Shown here: piece after piece, positions 1,857 to 10,826 of the stretch
Position numbering within the stretch: the stretch's first letter is position 1
Layout: every line of letters starts with the position of its first letter
From: Bryobacterales bacterium
GTDB taxonomy: Bacteria; Acidobacteriota; Terriglobia; Bryobacterales; Bryobacteraceae
NCBI GenBank assembly: GCA_016789785.1
Contig: JAEUQE010000267.1
Location: 1 to 10,826, forward strand
Length of the DNA: 10,826 bases
Direction of reading: 5' to 3'
The notes under the pieces: model-generated
Seen by the model: only the letters and a program-made list of their open reading frames with translations
What the model was told of the DNA's origin: nothing
Databases searched by the model: none
Position numbers and translations under genes: made by a program

Positions 1857-2579
1857 TTGATTCGTTTCTTGCCGATGATCGTGGGCTTGGGCACGGTACT
1901 CACCTGCCACGCATCCACCATGACCTATCAGCAGCAGTCGAGCAACAGCAGTGCGAGTGCAACCTTCACACTTCTTGGAAACGGCAACCTCCAGGTCACG
2001 CTCGCAAACACATCCATTGGAGCGGCCAGTTCCGCCAGCGATGTGTTGACCGCATTCTTCTTCAGCGTATCCCCAGGCGTTACCCTGACTCCGGTGTCTG
2101 TTCTGCTGGGGAATGGTTCGTCAATTCTGAACTGCCTCACGTGCAGTGGAGCCACCAATCTCGGCGGCGAGTGGGGCTATGCAGCCAACGTCCAGGGGTT
2201 CGCCAATCAGGCAGTGCATCTTGTGGGAGCGGCTTCCCACGGTGTGCTTGACGTCTCGAATCTGTTTGGCGGTCCGAATCTGGCGGGAACCAACGGCCCT
2301 GGCGGCATCGACTTCGGCCTCGTCTCCTACAGCACAACACCCGGCGCTGCTGCATTCACGGGATCGCCGCTGGTGCACAATCAGGTCATCATGACCTTCG
2401 GCACACAGGCCCCGTTCAATCTTTCGGCGATCGGGACTGTCGGCTTTCTCTATGGGTACGGCGGCGATGGCTCCAGTTCGTACAGCGCGAGTTTCGATAC
2501 GCCGGAACCCGCATCCTGTCTGCTGATCGGAGCGGGCCTTCTGGGACTCTACATGCGGCGCCGCCGCGTTCTCCCGTGA
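1857..2579 (+). CDS. PEP-CTERM surface protein (exosortase-sorted, possibly XDD4-like)
   Basis: This 240-residue exported protein begins with a short signal peptide (MIRFLPMIVGLG..., likely cut after CHA near residue 19). The body is rich in Gly, Ser, Ala and Asn and looks like beta-strand repeats, with a CxxC pair at C93/C96. The C-terminus is a textbook PEP-CTERM signal: PEP at 216-218, a hydrophobic stretch at about 219-233, then four arginines (234-237). In this system an exosortase in the inner membrane recognises and processes the tail, usually in bacteria that make exopolysaccharide or biofilm. No exosortase is in this window. The segment NLQVTLANTS...SDVLTAFFF resembles families named as exosortase-dependent 'XDD4' surface proteins, but that subfamily call is from memory and tentative. 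The start is TTG, supported by GGAGG five bases upstream. The gene ends two bases before the stop of the convergent coiled-coil gene. Confidence 0.82.
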   Translation: MIRFLPMIVGLGTVLTCHASTMTYQQQSSNSSASATFTLLGNGNLQVTLANTSIGAASSASDVLTAFFFSVSPGVTLTPVSVLLGNGSSILNCLTCSGATNLGGEWGYAANVQGFANQAVHLVGAASHGVLDVSNLFGGPNLAGTNGPGGIDFGLVSYSTTPGAAAFTGSPLVHNQVIMTFGTQAPFNLSAIGTVGFLYGYGGDGSSSYSASFDTPEPASCLLIGAGLLGLYMRRRRVLP

Positions 2580-3419: not shown

Positions 3420-4346
3420 TCATTTGTCCTTCAGCAGCAGACGTGTGCGATGGCGGATCTGCGTCCCATTCGCGCTCAACAGGATGTCCACCTGATTCGT
3501 CTTTGCCGGCTTCCACTCCAACTCCACACTGCTGTGCGACCGAATCGTCTCGAACGTACGCGCGATCGCGGCCGGAATATCCGCCATGGCACGGCAGAAT
3601 TCCGCGTTGCCTCCTGTCAGCGTCGCCATCTCCAGAAGTCCGGTTCGATAGGCCTCATTGAGCCGGTCGTTCTGATAGTCCACATGCACGATGAACAATG
3701 GTGGCTGATAGCGAAGCACCTTTGCCATCACCTGAGTTGTCTTCTCCTTCACCAGGCCTTCCGGAAAACGCCGGCTCATGTCACGCGAGTCGCTCGAGTT
3801 CACTACCGGATTCGTCAGATCCTCCCGGTAGTTGGCGACATTGCTATCGGTCACATACACCAGCGCGACCCGCACCCGGGACTTTGCCAGCATGCTATCA
3901 CCAATGCGGGCCGCAAACTCCACCGTGTCCAGCAGCCCTGCTCTTCCGCTCACGGCAATCTGACTCACTGCCTCGCTCGCCTTCTCGCGGTCATTCGTGG
4001 GATCCGCCAGCACCTTCAGTCCATCCTGGGCCCGCAACACTCCTACGTAGGCTTTCGGCGGCAGCTTTTCAATCTCGCTGATGATCGCCTTTCGCGCAGG
4101 ATCCACCAGCGACAGATCGCCTACCAGATCGAGCACCAGCAGCACCACCAGATCGCTCTCTCCGTTCTGAATGTGGATCACTTTTGCAGCCGACCCATTC
4201 AGTTTCGCGGTCAGGTTCTCCACGGCAATCGCCTGTGCGTCCGTGGTCCATGCGGGAACGCGCATCCGCTGCGGTCCCGCGCGTACGTTCTTAGCGGGTG
4301 GCTCCGCCATCAACACGCCAAGCAGCAATGAGAGGAGAACGTGCAT
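3420..4346 (-). CDS. Exported VWFA-like protein of the acidobacterial type
   Basis: This 308-residue protein starts with a short signal peptide (MHVLLSLLLGVLMA, cut near residue 14). It continues with a fold resembling the 'VWFA-related Acidobacterial domain' family, common in Acidobacteriota and of unknown function. The alternating strands and helices fit: VVLLVLDLVGD (67-77), AYVGVLRAQDG (99-109), T141 in LLDTVEFA, VALVYVTDS (160-168) and PLFIVHVD (216-223). The metal-site motif DxSxS is degenerate here (D73-L-V-G-D77, then S79), while the later T141 and D167 are present, so divalent-metal binding is uncertain. The longer in-frame start at 4463 is rejected because it overlaps the barrel gene by 118 bases and would bury the signal peptide. 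The chosen ATG at 4346 shares one base with the upstream stop (TGATG), which points to translational coupling. It may bind a partner in the periplasm or at the cell surface. Confidence 0.8.
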   Translation of the reverse strand: MHVLLSLLLGVLMAEPPAKNVRAGPQRMRVPAWTTDAQAIAVENLTAKLNGSAAKVIHIQNGESDLVVLLVLDLVGDLSLVDPARKAIISEIEKLPPKAYVGVLRAQDGLKVLADPTNDREKASEAVSQIAVSGRAGLLDTVEFAARIGDSMLAKSRVRVALVYVTDSNVANYREDLTNPVVNSSDSRDMSRRFPEGLVKEKTTQVMAKVLRYQPPLFIVHVDYQNDRLNEAYRTGLLEMATLTGGNAEFCRAMADIPAAIARTFETIRSHSSVELEWKPAKTNQVDILLSANGTQIRHRTRLLLKDK

Positions 4347-7162
4347 CAGAAATTGAACCTCAGCCCTAACTGAATGACGCGGCCGCCGCGCGATCCGATG
4401 ATCCTTCCCGCGTTGACGTTCGGCGCGCTTGCCGGGCCGATCACTGTATCCGGTTCGGTCCAATCGGCACGGTTGATGAAGTTCAATCCCACCATGCTGA
4501 ACTCCATGCTTGTCTCCTGCGTCACGGGGAAACGCTTGTTCACCGAAAGATCATGATTCTGATTCAAAGGGTTTCGCAACTGCGGATGTGTTCGCGAGGC
4601 ATCGCCGGTGGTGAAGTCCGCGGGTTGTGCGAATGCCGCGGGGTTGAACCATAGCTCCGGCCCCCGATTCTCGACATGCGGCGAGACGCCGGGCACCAGG
4701 TTGACATTCAGCGCGTCCACCACGCCGCCCGTATTGTTGAACTGCGGCCGCAGTGCGATCGGCTCACCGCTGGCGACAGTCGTCACGCCGCTCAATGACC
4801 AGCCTCCCACCAGGTGACGTTTCCAATCGGGGGAATTGAAGAACATCTTGTTCTGCCCGAACGGCAGTTCATACATGTAGGTGAGCGAGAGCCGGTGGGG
4901 GTTGTTGCTCGATGTCAGTGACCATTCGTTCTTGCGGTTGTAGTAGTCTTGAATGCCGTAGGGTCCGGAGTAGTTGTCCATCTGCTTGGAAAACTCATAA
5001 TAGGCCGACATCGAGAGCCCGCCGCTCGTCCGCTTCTCCACACGTACGCCGCACGCATCGCGTGTGTATTTGCCTTCCGGCCACGAACTGTACACTTCGA
5101 ATCGCTGATAGTGCGGAAACGGCCGCAGTGACCGGTTGAACTGCTCATCATTCAGGCGATCGCGAAACTGCAATGCCGAAAGCGAAATCGCATTTGGATT
5201 GGAACCCGAGTTCGACAGCAGCAGGTTCTTTCCCTCGGAATGCGCGGCGCTCACCGTGACCGTGACGGAAGCGCCCAATTCCGATTCGAGCGAAAGCGAT
5301 GCCGATTGATAGGTGGGCTGGCGGCCCGCCGGTTCCACAAGATCAGCAATCGTGTTGTTCGCCGATTCGGGCCGCAGATCGGGAAACGTGCGTGCGGGCG
5401 GCAAACCCTGGCTCAGCACTACCGCGGGTATGAGTTGCACATTGGGCGACACCCAGGCCGGCTGGCCGTTGAATGCCTGTGTTCCCCATTGCGTGGAATA
5501 AACCGGAATCGCGGAATACGATCGCCCGTAGCCTGCGCGCATCACGCTTCGCTTCACCTTCGGCAACGTCCATGCAAAGCCCATGCTCGGCTCGCCGCGG
5601 AATAGTACTGGTTGGAATGCGCGGCCACGTCCGGCCTGGCCCGCGACAATCATCGCGCCCGGCCGCTGGTTCACCGGATTGATCTCTGCGAACGACACGG
5701 TGGACATGCGATTGTAGCGCTCCGTTCGCGGCGTGCTGGTTTCGAGATTCAACCCGAAGGAGAGCGTGAAACCTCGCTTCACTTCCCATTGGTCGCGCAG
5801 TGCCACCAGAAAACGGTTCCTTCGAAAGTACGATGGCGAAATCACCAGGCTCTGCTCGGCAAAGTCCGCCGCGCCCAGAAGGAAACTCGCAAAGGCGTGC
5901 CCCGTGTTTACAATGCCCGGCAAACTCGTCAGCCCCGGCGAAAACGTATAGCGCCCCGATGGATATTGAGGTGTGAAGCTGTTCACCTGCTCCCGCACCA
6001 CCTGTCCGATCAAGCGAACACGATGTTCCCTCCATCGCGTCGAGTACCCATCGGTCAACACGAAACTGTTGCGCGCGTTGCGCGATTCCGGATATGGCGT
6101 GCCCATCGAAAGATACGGCTGCATGCGATAGCTCGCAAAGGGCCGCCCGTTCTCATCCAGCTTGGGCAGGTTGCGAATCTGATCCGTGGAGACATCAAAG
6201 GTGATCGTATTCACGCTGTTGGGGGAAAGCGTGAACACGTGTTCCAGCGTTGCTCGCCGGTTGTTGCGCGTGCGCGGAGGATTGTTCGGATCGGCTGCGG
6301 TTGGAAACCATGGCGCCGATCCGTCCAGACCGTTGGAGTAGTTCAATCCGAAGCCCAGCCTGTGGCGCTCCCGGACCGTGTGGTCCACGCGCGCAATCGC
6401 GCCATTGGCCGTGTTGATCTCCGGCGAGAAGATGAAGTAGTTGTTGCGGAAGAAGGGGCCGGCGTCGGAGTTTGGCGCGGGGTAGAACTGAATGAGACGT
6501 TGGGCTTCACGGTCCAGCCGCGATGCCGGAATGCGGTTATTGGGAAACGGTGAACGGTTGTACTGCGGGTTCTCCGCCGACACTGCTCGCCTCGGATCAT
6601 AAGCAGCGTTCTCCGCGGTCGTAGCGGGATCGTAGACCGGCAACTGCTGCCCTGCCAGATCCACCACATGCCCCCAGTCGCCGGTGCGTTCCTGCATGGT
6701 AGGGATCGTGCGCAGAAACGACCGGCCCACCTTCTCGCGCATGCCTTCAAACGTAAAACTGAAAAATGTTTTGCCGTCGCTCTTGTACAACCGCGGAATC
6801 AGAACCGGCCCGGCCACGTTGAAGCCAAACTGATTCCGCCGCAGGATATTCTTCGTCCCGCCCCGCTGCGCCACTTCGTGCGGAACCGCATCCAGAAAGT
6901 CGTTACGGAAGTTCTCAAACACACGCCCGTGCCACTGCATCTTGGCTCCGGCCTGGCGCGCCTTGGCGGGCGAGTCTTCGCGCAGCCCGAGATTTCGGGT
7001 TTGTACGCGAAACTCCTCGATCGCCTTCTGGATTTCGCTCACGGGAGCCGGTGGCGTTGTGCCCGGTCTTTGCGCAGGCGGGCGCGCAGGCGGCTGTGCC
7101 TGAAACCCGATGGACACATCCGCGGCCAACATCATCGCTGCGATCGCAGCAAGATATCGCAT
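4346..7162 (-). CDS. Oar-like TonB-receptor-type outer-membrane beta-barrel, short N-terminus
   Basis: This 938-residue protein has a signal peptide (about 1-22, ending GFQA) and a Pro-rich linker (23-40). A short plug remnant follows, with IEEFRVQTRN near 48-57 and WHGRVFENFRNDFLDA near 77-92. RRNQFGFNVAGPV (108-120) and KTFFSFTFEGMRE (131-143) are blocks typical of Oar/TonB-dependent receptor-like proteins that are abundant in Acidobacteriota. The rest is barrel-like, with alternating aromatic strands, and ends in LGLRFNF: the terminal Phe is the usual outer-membrane assembly signal. Related proteins are normally about 1,000-1,200 residues, with an N-terminal carboxypeptidase-regulatory-like domain and a full plug. 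Both appear missing or reduced here, and I see no TonB box. It is the first gene of an operon with the VWFA-like and coiled-coil genes. It lies 70 bases after alaC on the same strand, so readthrough from alaC is possible. GGGA just before the ATG is a weak ribosome site. The substrate is unknown. Confidence 0.85.
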   Translation of the reverse strand: MRYLAAIAAMMLAADVSIGFQAQPPARPPAQRPGTTPPAPVSEIQKAIEEFRVQTRNLGLREDSPAKARQAGAKMQWHGRVFENFRNDFLDAVPHEVAQRGGTKNILRRNQFGFNVAGPVLIPRLYKSDGKTFFSFTFEGMREKVGRSFLRTIPTMQERTGDWGHVVDLAGQQLPVYDPATTAENAAYDPRRAVSAENPQYNRSPFPNNRIPASRLDREAQRLIQFYPAPNSDAGPFFRNNYFIFSPEINTANGAIARVDHTVRERHRLGFGLNYSNGLDGSAPWFPTAADPNNPPRTRNNRRATLEHVFTLSPNSVNTITFDVSTDQIRNLPKLDENGRPFASYRMQPYLSMGTPYPESRNARNSFVLTDGYSTRWREHRVRLIGQVVREQVNSFTPQYPSGRYTFSPGLTSLPGIVNTGHAFASFLLGAADFAEQSLVISPSYFRRNRFLVALRDQWEVKRGFTLSFGLNLETSTPRTERYNRMSTVSFAEINPVNQRPGAMIVAGQAGRGRAFQPVLFRGEPSMGFAWTLPKVKRSVMRAGYGRSYSAIPVYSTQWGTQAFNGQPAWVSPNVQLIPAVVLSQGLPPARTFPDLRPESANNTIADLVEPAGRQPTYQSASLSLESELGASVTVTVSAAHSEGKNLLLSNSGSNPNAISLSALQFRDRLNDEQFNRSLRPFPHYQRFEVYSSWPEGKYTRDACGVRVEKRTSGGLSMSAYYEFSKQMDNYSGPYGIQDYYNRKNEWSLTSSNNPHRLSLTYMYELPFGQNKMFFNSPDWKRHLVGGWSLSGVTTVASGEPIALRPQFNNTGGVVDALNVNLVPGVSPHVENRGPELWFNPAAFAQPADFTTGDASRTHPQLRNPLNQNHDLSVNKRFPVTQETSMEFSMVGLNFINRADWTEPDTVIGPASAPNVNAGRIIGSRGGRVIQLGLRFNF

Positions 7163-7177
7163 GATCCCAGTTTATCT

Positions 7178-7189
7178 GGAACACGTTCC
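7178..7189. promoter_or_regulatory. Possible operator: GGAAC-N2-GTTCC upstream of the barrel operon
   Basis: A 5-bp inverted repeat with a two-base centre lies 15 bases upstream of the barrel start codon, in the 70-base gap after alaC. Its size and position would fit a repressor site or part of a small mRNA hairpin. Such short repeats arise by chance, and I cannot place a clear promoter next to it, so this is only a candidate. Confidence 0.2.
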
Positions 7190-7232
7190 GTTTCACGCAG
7201 CGATGATGAAACTATGTCCTGAATCCGCCGGG

Positions 7233-8417
7233 CTACTCGCTCAGGAACTTCTTCACGTTGCGCATGGCCTGCCGTGTCCGATGGCCATTCTCAATCAACG
7301 CAAAGCGCACATGGCCCTCGCCCAAAGGTCCGAAGCCAATGCCCGGCGCGACCGCGGTAAGCGCCTTCTCAAGCAGCAGCTTTGAAAACTCCAGTGAGCC
7401 GATTTCCTTGTAACGCTCCGGGATCGGCGCCCAAACAAACATGGAGCCCTTCGGCGGATCCACATGCCAGCCCGCGCGGTGCAAGCCTTCAATCATGACA
7501 TCGCGCCGCTTCTGGTACATGGCGCAGATCTTCCTGGTTTCTTCTTCACACTCCCGCAACGCAATGATAGACGCGATCTGAAGAGGCTGAAAGATGCCGT
7601 AGTCGAGGTAGCTCTTGATTCTTGCCAGCGCCTTGATCATCTTCGGGTTGCCGAGGCAAAAGCCCACGCGCCAGCCAGCCATGTTGTAGCTCTTCGACAT
7701 GGAGAAAATCTCAACGGCGTGTTCCTTCGCACCGTCCACCTGCAGAATGCTCGGCGCCTTGTAGCCATCGAAGCAGAGGTCCGCATACGCAAAGTCATGC
7801 ACAACCATCGTGCCGTGCTTCGCCGCGAGTCCAATGATCGCTTTGTGATAGTCCAGATCCACGCATTGTGTCGTCGGATTGTGGGGGAACGAGATGAGAA
7901 TCATCTTCGGCGCCTTGGTCGACGTGCGATAGAGATCCTCCAAACGATTGAGGAACTCGGCCGGCGTCGGCATCGGCAACATGCAGGCATGCCCTTCCGC
8001 CATGATCACGCCGTACTGGTGAATCGGATACGCGGGGTTCGGCGAAACCACCGCATCGCCCGGGCCGATAACTGCGAACAGCAGGTGTGCCAGCGCATCC
8101 TTCGCGCCGATGGTGGAGATCGCTTCCGTTTCCGGATCCAGCTTCACACCGTAGTTGCGCTCATACCGTTTGCAGATCTCCAGCCGCAGATTCGGCAGGC
8201 CGCGCGACATCGAATAGCGGTGATTCTTCGGATTCCGCGCTGCTTCCGCCATCTTCGAAACAATCACTCGGGGGGTAGCGCCATCGGGGTTTCCCATCCC
8301 GAAATCGACAACATCCTGTTGCGCGGCGCGCAGTCGCGCCTTCATCTCGTTCGTTACGGCGAACACGTATGGTGGGAGCTTCTGAATGCGATAAAACTCT
8401 TCGGAATCTAAAGGCAT
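7233..8417 (-). CDS. alaC: Alanine transaminase AlaC (class I/II PLP aminotransferase)
   Basis: The enzyme converts pyruvate plus glutamate to alanine plus 2-oxoglutarate in the cytoplasm, reversibly, using pyridoxal phosphate. Its 394 residues match E. coli AlaC (recalled sequence) block by block: LPPYVFAVTNEMK near the start, DFGMGNPDGATP (38-49), IGAKDALAHL (103-112), PNPAYPIHQYG (126-136), FPHNPTTQCVDL (177-188), HDFAYADL (207-214) and SMSKSYNMAGWRVGF (239-253). K242 is the PLP lysine. N180, D208 and Y211 hold the cofactor, R250 its phosphate, and R371 in HVRFAL the substrate carboxylate. The length is normal for the family and all key residues are present. It diverges from the FAD oxidoreductase with 14 bases between the two start codons, and no ribosome site is visible, so the message may be leaderless. 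A different 2-oxo acid preference cannot be excluded from sequence. Confidence 0.93.
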   Translation of the reverse strand: MPLDSEEFYRIQKLPPYVFAVTNEMKARLRAAQQDVVDFGMGNPDGATPRVIVSKMAEAARNPKNHRYSMSRGLPNLRLEICKRYERNYGVKLDPETEAISTIGAKDALAHLLFAVIGPGDAVVSPNPAYPIHQYGVIMAEGHACMLPMPTPAEFLNRLEDLYRTSTKAPKMILISFPHNPTTQCVDLDYHKAIIGLAAKHGTMVVHDFAYADLCFDGYKAPSILQVDGAKEHAVEIFSMSKSYNMAGWRVGFCLGNPKMIKALARIKSYLDYGIFQPLQIASIIALRECEEETRKICAMYQKRRDVMIEGLHRAGWHVDPPKGSMFVWAPIPERYKEIGSLEFSKLLLEKALTAVAPGIGFGPLGEGHVRFALIENGHRTRQAMRNVKKFLSE

Positions 8418-8426: not shown

Positions 8427-8432
8427 ATTGTA
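8427..8432 (-). promoter_or_regulatory. Candidate -10 element for alaC
   Basis: On the minus strand TACAAT (five of six to TATAAT) ends nine bases before the alaC ATG, the same spacing as the plus-strand hexamer facing it. Transcription would begin within a few bases of the start codon. No -35 match was found in the expected place. There is no Shine-Dalgarno sequence on either side of this 14-base gap. Confidence 0.4.
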
Positions 8433-9406
8433 TGGTGCGAGTGCGCGTCCTTGGGGCTGGACCTGCTGGTGGAGCCGCGGCGTTGATGGCGTTGCAGGAA
8501 GGCGCACACGTGGATCTCTTCGAGAAAAGCCCGTTTCCACGGCACAAGGTGTGCGGCGAGTTTCTCTCTCCGGAGTCGGTTCGGGTCCTCGATCGCACCG
8601 GTGTTCGCGGCACATTCGAAGCACAGGCGGCGCGCATGCCGCGCATGTTGCTCTACTTCGGCGAACGCGAGAAACGCGGTTCGCTGCCTGATCCGGCCTA
8701 CGGTCTCAGCCGGTCGGCACTCGATCAGTTGTTGCTCAATGCCGCGATTTCACGGGGTGCGAAGCATCATCGCGAAAAGGGCGATGCCTCCGGTACAACG
8801 GTGGTGGCCACCGGCCGTTATGCGAGCGCCGCGAAGGGCAAGCGGCTCTTCGGGTTCAAAGCGCACTTCCGCGGACCAGTGAGCGATGCCGTGGAGATGT
8901 TCTTCATCAGTGGCCGTGCCTACGTTGGCGTGAGCCCCATCGAGAACGGATTGACCAATGTTTGCGGGCTCGCCGAAGAGGACGTACTCGGCGCCTGCAA
9001 CTTCGAGATCGATGAGTATCTCGCGCGGCACCGTCCCCTGCGCGAACGTCTGGATCCGCTCGCGCGCCAATGGGACTGGCTCACCGTAGGCCCACTGATC
9101 TTCCAACATCAACTCGAAGAGCCCGCAATGCCCGCGATCTATCGCGCCGGGGACGCGCTTTCGTTCATTGATCCTTTTACCGGATCGGGCATCCTCTCCG
9201 CGCTCTTCACGGGCAGCGAGGCAGGACGCGCCGCGGCACGTGGCGTTGATTCATCGAAGCATTTGAAGCTTTGCCGCAGCCGCCTGCTGCAGCCGTTTCG
9301 CGCGACATCGTTCTTCCGCCAAGCGCTCGTGGACGGCTGGGGGCAATGGATCGCACCATGGCTTCCATCATCGGCGCTCTTCTTCCTCACGCGCCCGAAA
9401 GTGTAG
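8432..9406 (+). CDS. Compact FAD-dependent oxidoreductase (geranylgeranyl-reductase / PHBH-like fold)
   Basis: This 324-residue cytoplasmic or membrane-associated flavoprotein has the Rossmann FAD motif GAGPAG (8-13), a ribose-binding acidic residue E31 (LFEK) and the block CGEFLSP (41-47), common in geranylgeranyl-reductase-like oxidoreductases. A second FAD motif, AGDALSFIDPFTGSGI, spans 239-254. The protein is short: relatives usually have 370-400 residues. The loss appears to lie after SRGAKHH (107-113), where the usual strands leading to the ribityl-binding GRxS-type segment (here ATGRYAS, 126-132) are reduced. Its substrate is unknown; relatives act in lipid, quinone, polyketide or halogenation pathways. 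No type III polyketide synthase or methyltransferase, frequent partners of such enzymes, is in the window. It stands alone on the plus strand and ends six bases before the stop of the convergent deiodinase-like gene. Confidence 0.8.
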   Translation: MVRVRVLGAGPAGGAAALMALQEGAHVDLFEKSPFPRHKVCGEFLSPESVRVLDRTGVRGTFEAQAARMPRMLLYFGEREKRGSLPDPAYGLSRSALDQLLLNAAISRGAKHHREKGDASGTTVVATGRYASAAKGKRLFGFKAHFRGPVSDAVEMFFISGRAYVGVSPIENGLTNVCGLAEEDVLGACNFEIDEYLARHRPLRERLDPLARQWDWLTVGPLIFQHQLEEPAMPAIYRAGDALSFIDPFTGSGILSALFTGSEAGRAAARGVDSSKHLKLCRSRLLQPFRATSFFRQALVDGWGQWIAPWLPSSALFFLTRPKV

Positions 9407-9412
9407 AGCCTT

Positions 9413-10066
9413 TCAGATCCTCACCATCACATCTTCCAGTGGCTTCTTGGTGATCTCGGGCACCGTCGCATCGGAAGACGGATATCCAACCGGGATGAGC
9501 AGGAACGGACGTTCATTCGCAGGCCGTTCGAGAATCTGTTGCAGAAAGCCCATCGGGTTCGGAGTGTGCGTCAGCGTGACAAGTCCGCACCAGTGCAGCG
9601 CCGCAAGCAGGAACCCACATGCGAGGCCCACCGATTCCTGCACGTAGTAGTGCTTGCGCTTGCGATCGCCATCCAGCCCGTAGTCGATACGGAACACCAC
9701 GATCAACGCCGGTGCGATCTCCAGAAACTCCTTGTGCCAGTCCGTGCCGAACTGTGCGAGTTCCGCCAGCCATTCATCCGGGAAGCGCCGTTCATAGTTC
9801 TCGCGCTCTTCGTTCTCGGCGGCGATGCGGATCCTGTGCTTCACTTCCGGATCCGTCACCACCACGAATCGCCACGGCTGCTGGTTGGCGCCCGATGGCG
9901 CGAATGACGCTGTGCGAATGCACGTCTCGATCACGCCGTCAGGTATCGGGTCGGCGGAGAAGAACCGTAAAGAACGCCTTGTGCGAATGCGCTCCAGGAA
10001 CTCCTCCGACCGCCGCAGCATCTCATCCGCAGGCAATCGTTCGAACTCAAAGGGAATGTGTTTCAT
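9413..10066 (-). CDS. Iodotyrosine-deiodinase-like FMN reductive dehalogenase (nitroreductase superfamily)
   Basis: The 217-residue product aligns along its length with human iodotyrosine deiodinase (recalled sequence), not just with generic nitroreductases. It has RRSLRFFS (30-37, FMN phosphate side), APSGANQQPW (56-65), ENYERR (89-94) with W99, HYYVQESVGLACGFLLAAL (139-157), GLVTLTHTP (161-169) and LIPVGYPSSDATVP (190-203). The human lid residues that bind the amino acid part of halotyrosine, E157, Y161 and K182, correspond to E87, Y91 and K112, and T239 near flavin N5 corresponds to T168. All four are kept. The membrane anchor of the animal enzyme is absent, as expected for a soluble bacterial form. 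The predicted reaction is FMN-dependent removal of iodide (or bromide/chloride) from halotyrosine. The start is ATG at 10066, which overlaps the fahA stop as ATGA; a longer start at 10090 lies inside fahA and is less likely. It is the last gene of its operon. Halotyrosine activity is inferred, not shown. Confidence 0.85.
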   Translation of the reverse strand: MKHIPFEFERLPADEMLRRSEEFLERIRTRRSLRFFSADPIPDGVIETCIRTASFAPSGANQQPWRFVVVTDPEVKHRIRIAAENEERENYERRFPDEWLAELAQFGTDWHKEFLEIAPALIVVFRIDYGLDGDRKRKHYYVQESVGLACGFLLAALHWCGLVTLTHTPNPMGFLQQILERPANERPFLLIPVGYPSSDATVPEITKKPLEDVMVRI

Positions 10067-10826
10067 GATGCGAGAATGCGGCCACGGCACTCGCCGAGGC
10101 CAATCCGTGCGAAGCCTTCCTTCTCCGCGAAGCCGCGAAGGATCACTTCATCTCCATCCAGCAGATACGTGCGTTCTTCTCCACTTGGCAGACGCAATGG
10201 CTGTGTCCCTCGCCATGTGCGTTCCAGCAGGCATCCGCGCGACTCAGTCTCCGGCCCACTCACCGTGCCGCTTCCGATGAGATCGCCGGGCCGCAACGGG
10301 CATCCATTCGATGTGTGATGCGCAATCATTTGCGCCAGCGTCCAATGCATGTGACGGAAGTTGCCGCGGCTGATCAGGAATGGTTCTGGTGAATTCGGTG
10401 TGCGGATCCACACTTCCACCGTCAACGCGAACGCACCGTCGATCGTCTGCCGCAAGTAGGGCAGTGGCTCAGGACGCGCATCGGGCGCAACCCGGAATGG
10501 CTCCAGAGCTTCTCGCGTGATCACCCAAGGTGAAATTGATGTCGCGAAGTTCTTCGCGAGAAACGGACCGAGCGGTTGGTACTCCCAACGCTGAATGTCT
10601 CGTGCGGACCAATCGTTCAACAGGCAGATGCCGGCCAGATGATCCTCGGCCTCATCAATCGGAATCGGCGTCCCCATTGCGTTTCCAGGGCCAAGCCACG
10701 CGCCGATCTCCAGTTCATAGTCGAGCTCACAGGTTGGGCCGAAAATGTTTTCGCCGAGTTGACCGTTTGGACGCCGCACCGGCGTACCGCTCAACACGAT
10801 GGACGATGCGCGGCCGTGATAGGCGA
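10063..10826 (-). CDS. fahA: Fumarylacetoacetase, C-terminal part (5' end beyond window)
   Basis: This enzyme splits 4-fumarylacetoacetate into fumarate and acetoacetate, the last step of tyrosine and phenylalanine breakdown via homogentisate. About 253 residues are visible, matching roughly residues 158 to the end of the 419-residue human enzyme (recalled sequence). Motifs in order are YHGRASS at the window edge, SGTPVRRPNGQ, ELE (calcium-binding E199/E201 in human), NDWSARDIQRWEYQPLGPF (human D233, R237, Q240, Y244, then the K253 equivalent), SGTVSGPE (T350) and CLLE (E364). All these calcium, substrate and catalytic positions are kept. The frame is open to the window end, and the homology continues upstream of the GTG at 10797, so that codon is an internal Val and not a start. 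The stop overlaps the start of the deiodinase-like gene by four bases. Earlier pathway genes would be expected upstream, outside the window. Confidence 0.95.
   Translation of the reverse strand, partial: AYHGRASSIVLSGTPVRRPNGQLGENIFGPTCELDYELEIGAWLGPGNAMGTPIPIDEAEDHLAGICLLNDWSARDIQRWEYQPLGPFLAKNFATSISPWVITREALEPFRVAPDARPEPLPYLRQTIDGAFALTVEVWIRTPNSPEPFLISRGNFRHMHWTLAQMIAHHTSNGCPLRPGDLIGSGTVSGPETESRGCLLERTWRGTQPLRLPSGEERTYLLDGDEVILRGFAEKEGFARIGLGECRGRILAS

Follow-up and report, generated by a model that had tools for sequence, protein, structure and literature searches.

We analysed a 10,826-nt stretch of Bryobacterales DNA (positions 1-10,826 of contig JAEUQE010000267.1, assembly GCA_016789785.1; hereafter the window), in which the gene of an iodotyrosine deiodinase (IYD)-like flavoprotein overlaps the end of fahA, encoding fumarylacetoacetase. 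The reading that we prefer, with a probability of about 0.5 or slightly above, is that this protein is a halotyrosine deiodinase docked to, and coupled with, homogentisate-route genes, into which it would feed tyrosine. It would be an FMN-dependent member of the nitroreductase superfamily that binds the zwitterion of 3-halotyrosine and removes the halide reductively to give tyrosine. In the window lineage, its gene probably joined a run of homogentisate-route genes by insertion at their 3' end and would be translated by stop-start coupling behind fahA; the released tyrosine would enter the homogentisate route, of which FahA is the last enzyme. The activity, the substrate range and this flow of tyrosine into homogentisate are what we infer. 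Beyond the window, IYD is best read as a halotyrosine dehalogenase that moves between genomes and now and then becomes docked to genes using tyrosine, in this case those of homogentisate catabolism.

The following features of the window are considered below:
10063..10824, minus strand: fahA, fumarylacetoacetase, C-terminal part, the 5' part lying beyond the window end (TIGR01266, FAH structures)
10063..10066, minus strand: ATGA stop/start overlap of fahA and the IYD gene (read from the sequence)
9413..10066, minus strand: IYD-like flavoprotein, 217 aa, ATG start (PF00881, PDB 5ko7, mammalian IYD)
9806..9808, minus strand: codon of E87, presumed first residue of the zwitterion triad (aligned with 5ko7 and mammalian IYD)
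9794..9796, minus strand: codon of Y91, presumed second triad residue (alignment)
9731..9733, minus strand: codon of K112, presumed third triad residue (alignment)
9563..9565, minus strand: codon of T168, at the presumed flavin-N5 Thr position (alignment)
8432..9406, plus strand: FAD protein of the geranylgeranyl-reductase superfamily, convergent with the IYD gene (TIGR02032, 88 bits, cut-off 159)
7233..8417, minus strand: class I/II aminotransferase, AlaC-like (PF00155), start-to-start with the FAD protein gene
The window also encodes a 938-aa outer-membrane beta-barrel protein (4346-7162, minus strand; PF25183, 450 bits) and a PEP-CTERM-tagged protein (1857-2579, plus strand); the gene at 3420-4463, next to the beta-barrel gene, gave no match in a Pfam scan.

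The gene identities given in an earlier note on this DNA, fahA and an IYD-like gene, were supported by FAH structures and a TIGR01266 match just under cut-off for the former and by PF00881 and solved IYDs for the latter. The fahA piece covered model positions 159-418 of 420 and scored 363 bits against a TIGR01266 cut-off of 375, presumably because the gene piece is truncated; FAH structures aligned with its residues 2-252 in the PDB comparison, and the full-length FahA of genome G050, 80 % identical to the window piece, reached 468 bits. The note had also claimed that the fahA stop and the IYD start share ATGA (10063-10066), which the minus-strand reading frames confirmed. This overlap suggests translational coupling, and inspection by eye revealed no obvious Shine-Dalgarno sequence before the IYD ATG, which suits stop-start coupling of the two genes. 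Four-nucleotide ATGA overlaps are frequent in co-directional bacterial gene pairs, so that the overlap by itself points to coupling and not to a common pathway.

The best solved relative of the window IYD was PDB 5ko7, titled 'Nitroreductase' (263 bits), which we take to be, like 5ko8 and 5krd, the IYD of Haliscomenobacter hydrossis. The two proteins matched over their whole length, and E91, Y95, K116 and T173 of the H. hydrossis enzyme, a numbering consistent with the alignment, are all kept in the window IYD; we know of no fahA coupling of the H. hydrossis gene. Mammalian IYD structures aligned with residues 2-216 (212-223 bits), while 6pz0, a shorter chain titled iodotyrosine deiodinase, reached 84 bits and the other nitroreductases in the PDB comparison at most 64 bits; the remaining curated nitroreductase families gave far weaker scores, all well under cut-off. 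In IYD structures the Glu-Tyr-Lys triad presumably clamps the halotyrosine zwitterion, and the Thr aligned with T168 presumably contacts flavin N5. Among 171 aligned IYDs, the window protein included, E87, Y91 and K112 were each invariant, and the T168 position held T in 170 and S in one. Given the matches to solved IYDs and these conserved residues, the assignment as IYD is sound at the sequence level, and the protein probably dehalogenates halotyrosine. Its catalytic domain and triad are common to mammalian IYD/DEHAL1, which is membrane-anchored, whereas the window IYD begins at the catalytic domain. IYD-like proteins are common (at least 8000 candidates passed, of 8000 scored), and for 120 relatives listed, the label was nitroreductase in 17 cases and iodotyrosine deiodinase in 15, with no name for the others. 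In the IYD tree, the window protein fell in its own clade of six with database proteins P0002-P0006, IYD relatives at 96 % and 81-82 % identity.

To place the pair, fahA loci were compared within the Bryobacterales order (that of genomes G001 and G050), where 47 of 200 genomes have fahA. The closest fahA, about 80-81 % identical to that of the window, was that of G050, whose gene order is the window's (hmgA-like gene, fahA, FAD protein, aminotransferase) with IYD absent. There the FAD protein gene (69 % identical) adjoins fahA, their reading frames overlapping by 4 nt at their ends, and the aminotransferase is 93 % identical; hppD lies on another contig than the hmgA-like gene and fahA. IYD was found neither at the syntenic place in G050 nor elsewhere in that genome (E 1e-60), nor beside fahA in any of 30 fahA loci of the order, G050 included, with flanks of up to 1.5 kb. 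Since the closest syntenic genome lacks IYD, the fahA-IYD pair looks locally acquired, and its gene order indicates that the partner of IYD is a homogentisate-type gene run. The simplest reading, with a polarity drawn from few genomes, is an insertion of IYD, in the window lineage, at the 3' end of fahA; we thus infer insertion rather than loss. The C-terminus of the window FahA is 7 residues shorter than that of G050, which is weak evidence of insertion because its length varies among the 30 genomes.

The dioxygenase gene in the runs of G050 and G844 is a divergent hmgA-like one. A 385-aa protein is encoded at or next to fahA in three genomes of the order (L116 10509-11666, L117 11749-12906, L118 8235-9392) and was also found in L210 (4578-5735). 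The L117 and L118 proteins are 71-74 % identical to that of L116, and that of G844 67 %. Matches to HgmA_N were weak (38-41 bits, two proteins scanned) and TIGR01015 gave 51 bits against 511 for L116, so the 385-aa protein may represent a homogentisate dioxygenase that has diverged or been replaced. A CnbZ-family protein (L116 13614-14366), which one would not expect with homogentisate genes, lies two genes from the G050 hmgA-like gene and scored 311 bits with the 2-amino-5-chloromuconate deaminase equivalog (cut-off 220). Next to fahA or close to it, L117 (11006-11764), L209 (11540-12454) and L210-L214 also encode a conserved protein, called at 252-408 aa, with no Pfam match in the two scanned.

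The earlier note had named conserved fahA-IYD pairing in several genera as a check of its reading; among the genomes searched, the exact pair was found only in the window. No adjacent pair occurred in the order, where IYD was searched in 257 genomes and fahA in 200 of those, or in 396 genomes sampled from the phylum, where one of the 32 genomes with both genes has them on one contig. The exact pair as a conserved unit was rejected on these samples.

Two other genomes of the Acidobacteriota group have IYD among or against homogentisate genes. In G734 (locus L209), hppD, orf123, IYD, hmgA, orf304 and fahA follow each other on a single strand:
7191-8282: hppD
8887-9555: IYD
9552-10841: hmgA, with both HgmA Pfam domains
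12948-14267: fahA
The gap between orf123 (123 aa) and IYD is 6 nt, and IYD overlaps hmgA by 4 nt with a GTG start or by 1 nt with an ATG start; the remaining gaps (226, 698 and 493 nt) hold short open frames on either strand. The run from hppD to fahA is likely one operon, judging from this spacing. The homogentisate runs of G483, G592, G844 and G050, also from the Acidobacteriota group, are without IYD, unlike that of G734; of hppD, hmgA and fahA, the window shows fahA alone. In G498 (L248), IYD (5998-6666) lies tail to tail with hmgA (6667-7959), with 0 nt between them, and hppD (10384-11493) follows 2.4 kb beyond hmgA. A gene for an NADPH-dependent FMN reductase (5336-5890) lies upstream of that IYD, and three related loci (L249, L282, L294) have a relative of it no more than 2.5 kb from IYD. 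The IYDs of the window, G734 and G498 are on different branches of the tree, with low support near the G734 row.

Co-occurrence of IYD with the homogentisate route was then assessed by counts, with tests that ignore phylogeny and genome completeness. Within the order, IYD was present in 55 of 257 genomes and HPPD over cut-off in 76; the latter occurred in 8 of the 55 IYD genomes versus 68 of the 202 others (OR 0.34, p=0.007), or 10/55 versus 69/202 when HPPD fragments of at least 150 bits were counted (OR 0.43, p=0.03). That HPPD is rarer in the IYD genomes of the order, 47 of the 55 having none over cut-off, counts against a general tie between IYD and homogentisate. A general dependence of IYD on this route in the order was accordingly left unsupported, the association being negative. 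Six genomes of the order have both IYD and fahA (co-occurrence OR 0.48, p=0.15, with an approximate denominator of 197 assumed of the 200 searched), and on the contigs examined the two genes are adjacent in none of them. The sign was reversed in the phylum sample (n=396; IYD in 96, fahA in 94), in which 32 genomes have both genes versus 22.8 expected (p=0.013), a mild positive co-occurrence. Eight acidobacterial IYD genomes searched for fahA gave no clear match and one weak one.

At the level of loci, fahA, hmgA or hppD was found in 2 of 216 IYD loci (L209 and L248 only), a set that includes genomes taken twice (e.g. L001 and L200) and in which many flanks end at contig ends. From the phylum, 80 of 95 further IYD loci were read plus that of G734, 15 being left out. 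In a Bacteroidota order with 67 IYD genomes, HPPD is near-universal (176 of 198 genomes), so that this sample is uninformative on the IYD-HPPD association; four of five Bacteroidota IYD genomes have fahA, not close to IYD. Nine plasmid records carry IYD; in the five inspected stretches no homogentisate-route gene was found, and among the annotated neighbours in two of them there was no tyrosine-route gene.

IYD also has other neighbours. Of 136 loci from the order and the phylum, 7 have a pyridoxal decarboxylase gene immediately next to IYD, either divergent from it (L148, L200, L201) or upstream on the same strand (L235, L245, L260, L290), which fits tyrosine as a product being used. In the PDB comparison, which covers L148 only, its decarboxylase was closest to DOPA/tyrosine decarboxylases (396-374 bits, DOPA decarboxylase being top at 396) and gave 171 bits with glutamate decarboxylase; the six others are 47-86 % identical to it. 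All seven close matches directly adjoin IYD and none lies elsewhere in the loci; weaker relatives (29-30 % identity) in L182 and L152 are farther from IYD. In 10 of the 55 IYD genomes of the order, a relative of the window aminotransferase lies 254-488 nt from IYD in divergent orientation. The window enzyme itself is AlaC/DAP-aminotransferase-like and below the cut-offs of all 25 listed models. An aminotransferase-IYD arrangement as the ancestral neighbourhood of the window gene was considered and is unsupported, aminotransferase-adjacent IYDs being on several branches.

The commonest partner in the order is a PQQ_2 beta-propeller gene, which precedes IYD on the same strand by at most 3 kb in 15 of the 55 genomes and is the gene directly upstream in 14 (L150, L152, L153, L167, L174, L179, and also L183-L185, L187, L188, L191-L193), the Pfam assignment having been made on one of the 14. 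A rhodanese-like gene is likewise upstream on the IYD strand in 5 of the 55 and a nitrilase-like gene in 3, with a split match in L194; a LigB-type dioxygenase gene is directly upstream of IYD in L279. Ten Chloroflexota loci (L024, L028, L035, L037, L044, L047, L051, L052, L068, L069) keep an IYD neighbourhood of their own (e.g. L028 8066-17550), consisting of acetyl xylan esterase-like, metallo-beta-lactamase-fold and IYD genes, often a short-chain dehydrogenase, then an amidohydrolase and a SelA-like PLP enzyme. In the non-acidobacterial IYD loci among L001-L080, no homogentisate-route or decarboxylase neighbour was found with the queries used, the sole match being a distant aminotransferase (25 % identity, L073).

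These contexts bear on the alternatives to our preferred reading. A single, often-transferred IYD gene might land behind any tolerant operon and serve purposes of its own (to detoxify, to exclude halotyrosine from proteins or to recover tyrosine), the fahA junction being metabolically meaningless. The diversity of IYD contexts in the 55 genomes (PQQ-propeller, rhodanese-like and nitrilase-like genes), the esterase/metallo-hydrolase/amidohydrolase neighbourhood confined to Chloroflexota, the patchy IYD tree and the negative IYD-HPPD association in the order all agree with this explanation, which we regard as a serious contender of lower probability. It fits less well with the G734 locus, where IYD lies inside the homogentisate run, with that of G498, where IYD abuts hmgA, or with seven close decarboxylase matches that are all directly beside IYD. 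At least two homogentisate loci would have p ~0.005-0.04 given a guessed chance expectation of 0.1-0.3.

Tyrosine from IYD might instead go mainly to uses at the amino-acid level (tyramine, transamination, protein synthesis), with homogentisate as one outlet among several and not the principal one. The aromatic amino acid decarboxylases that adjoin IYD in 7 of 136 loci (DOPA decarboxylase-like in L148), the divergent aminotransferases in 10 of 55 genomes and the 47 IYD genomes without HPPD over cut-off are in line with this, but the gene coupled in the window is fahA and not a decarboxylase, and the window aminotransferase, under the listed model cut-offs, may have another specificity; we consider this alternative about as probable as the preceding one. 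Much less probable is that the protein reduces nitro compounds or quinones in general and, instead of halotyrosine, takes a quinone or an aromatic intermediate from the homogentisate route: membership of the nitroreductase superfamily, the title of 5ko7 and the 17 relatives labelled nitroreductase (against 15 labelled iodotyrosine deiodinase, of 120 listed) would suit it, whereas the mammalian IYD match over residues 2-216, the triad invariant in 171/171 proteins and the much weaker, far sub-threshold scores of the other curated nitroreductase families argue for a deiodinase.

Coming back to the docked halotyrosine deiodinase, the earlier claim of halotyrosine salvage into homogentisate survives in part. 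The identity and triad of IYD, the G734 and G498 loci and the phylum co-occurrence support it, and such salvage is plausible in the window genome and in G734. The exact pair being found only in the window, the lack of IYD in G050 and the negative IYD-HPPD association in the order weigh against it, and homogentisate salvage seems not to be what bacterial IYD generally does. The position of IYD beside various tyrosine-using enzymes is in our view a more interesting lead than the exact pairing. We tentatively propose, at somewhat less than even odds, that IYD of the Acidobacteriota group may be a plug-in dehalogenase that became docked on several independent occasions to genes whose products consume tyrosine (three different positions among homogentisate genes, and two arrangements with a tyrosine/DOPA-type decarboxylase), which would turn halotyrosine into a growth or nitrogen substrate.

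To our knowledge, the role of IYD in bacteria has no settled answer. Mammalian IYD recycles iodide in the thyroid (PMC13078365). We found no paper linking bacterial IYD and tyrosine catabolism in the open-licence literature, and earlier printed suggestions are possible. The fahA-IYD pair, the G734 run and the repeated decarboxylase-IYD neighbours make a role in halotyrosine catabolism testable with few enzymes. If true, halotyrosine catabolism would mean that halogenated tyrosines have an additional biological sink in soil, and, should IYD indeed be a plug-in dehalogenase, this would give a first physiological role for bacterial IYD.
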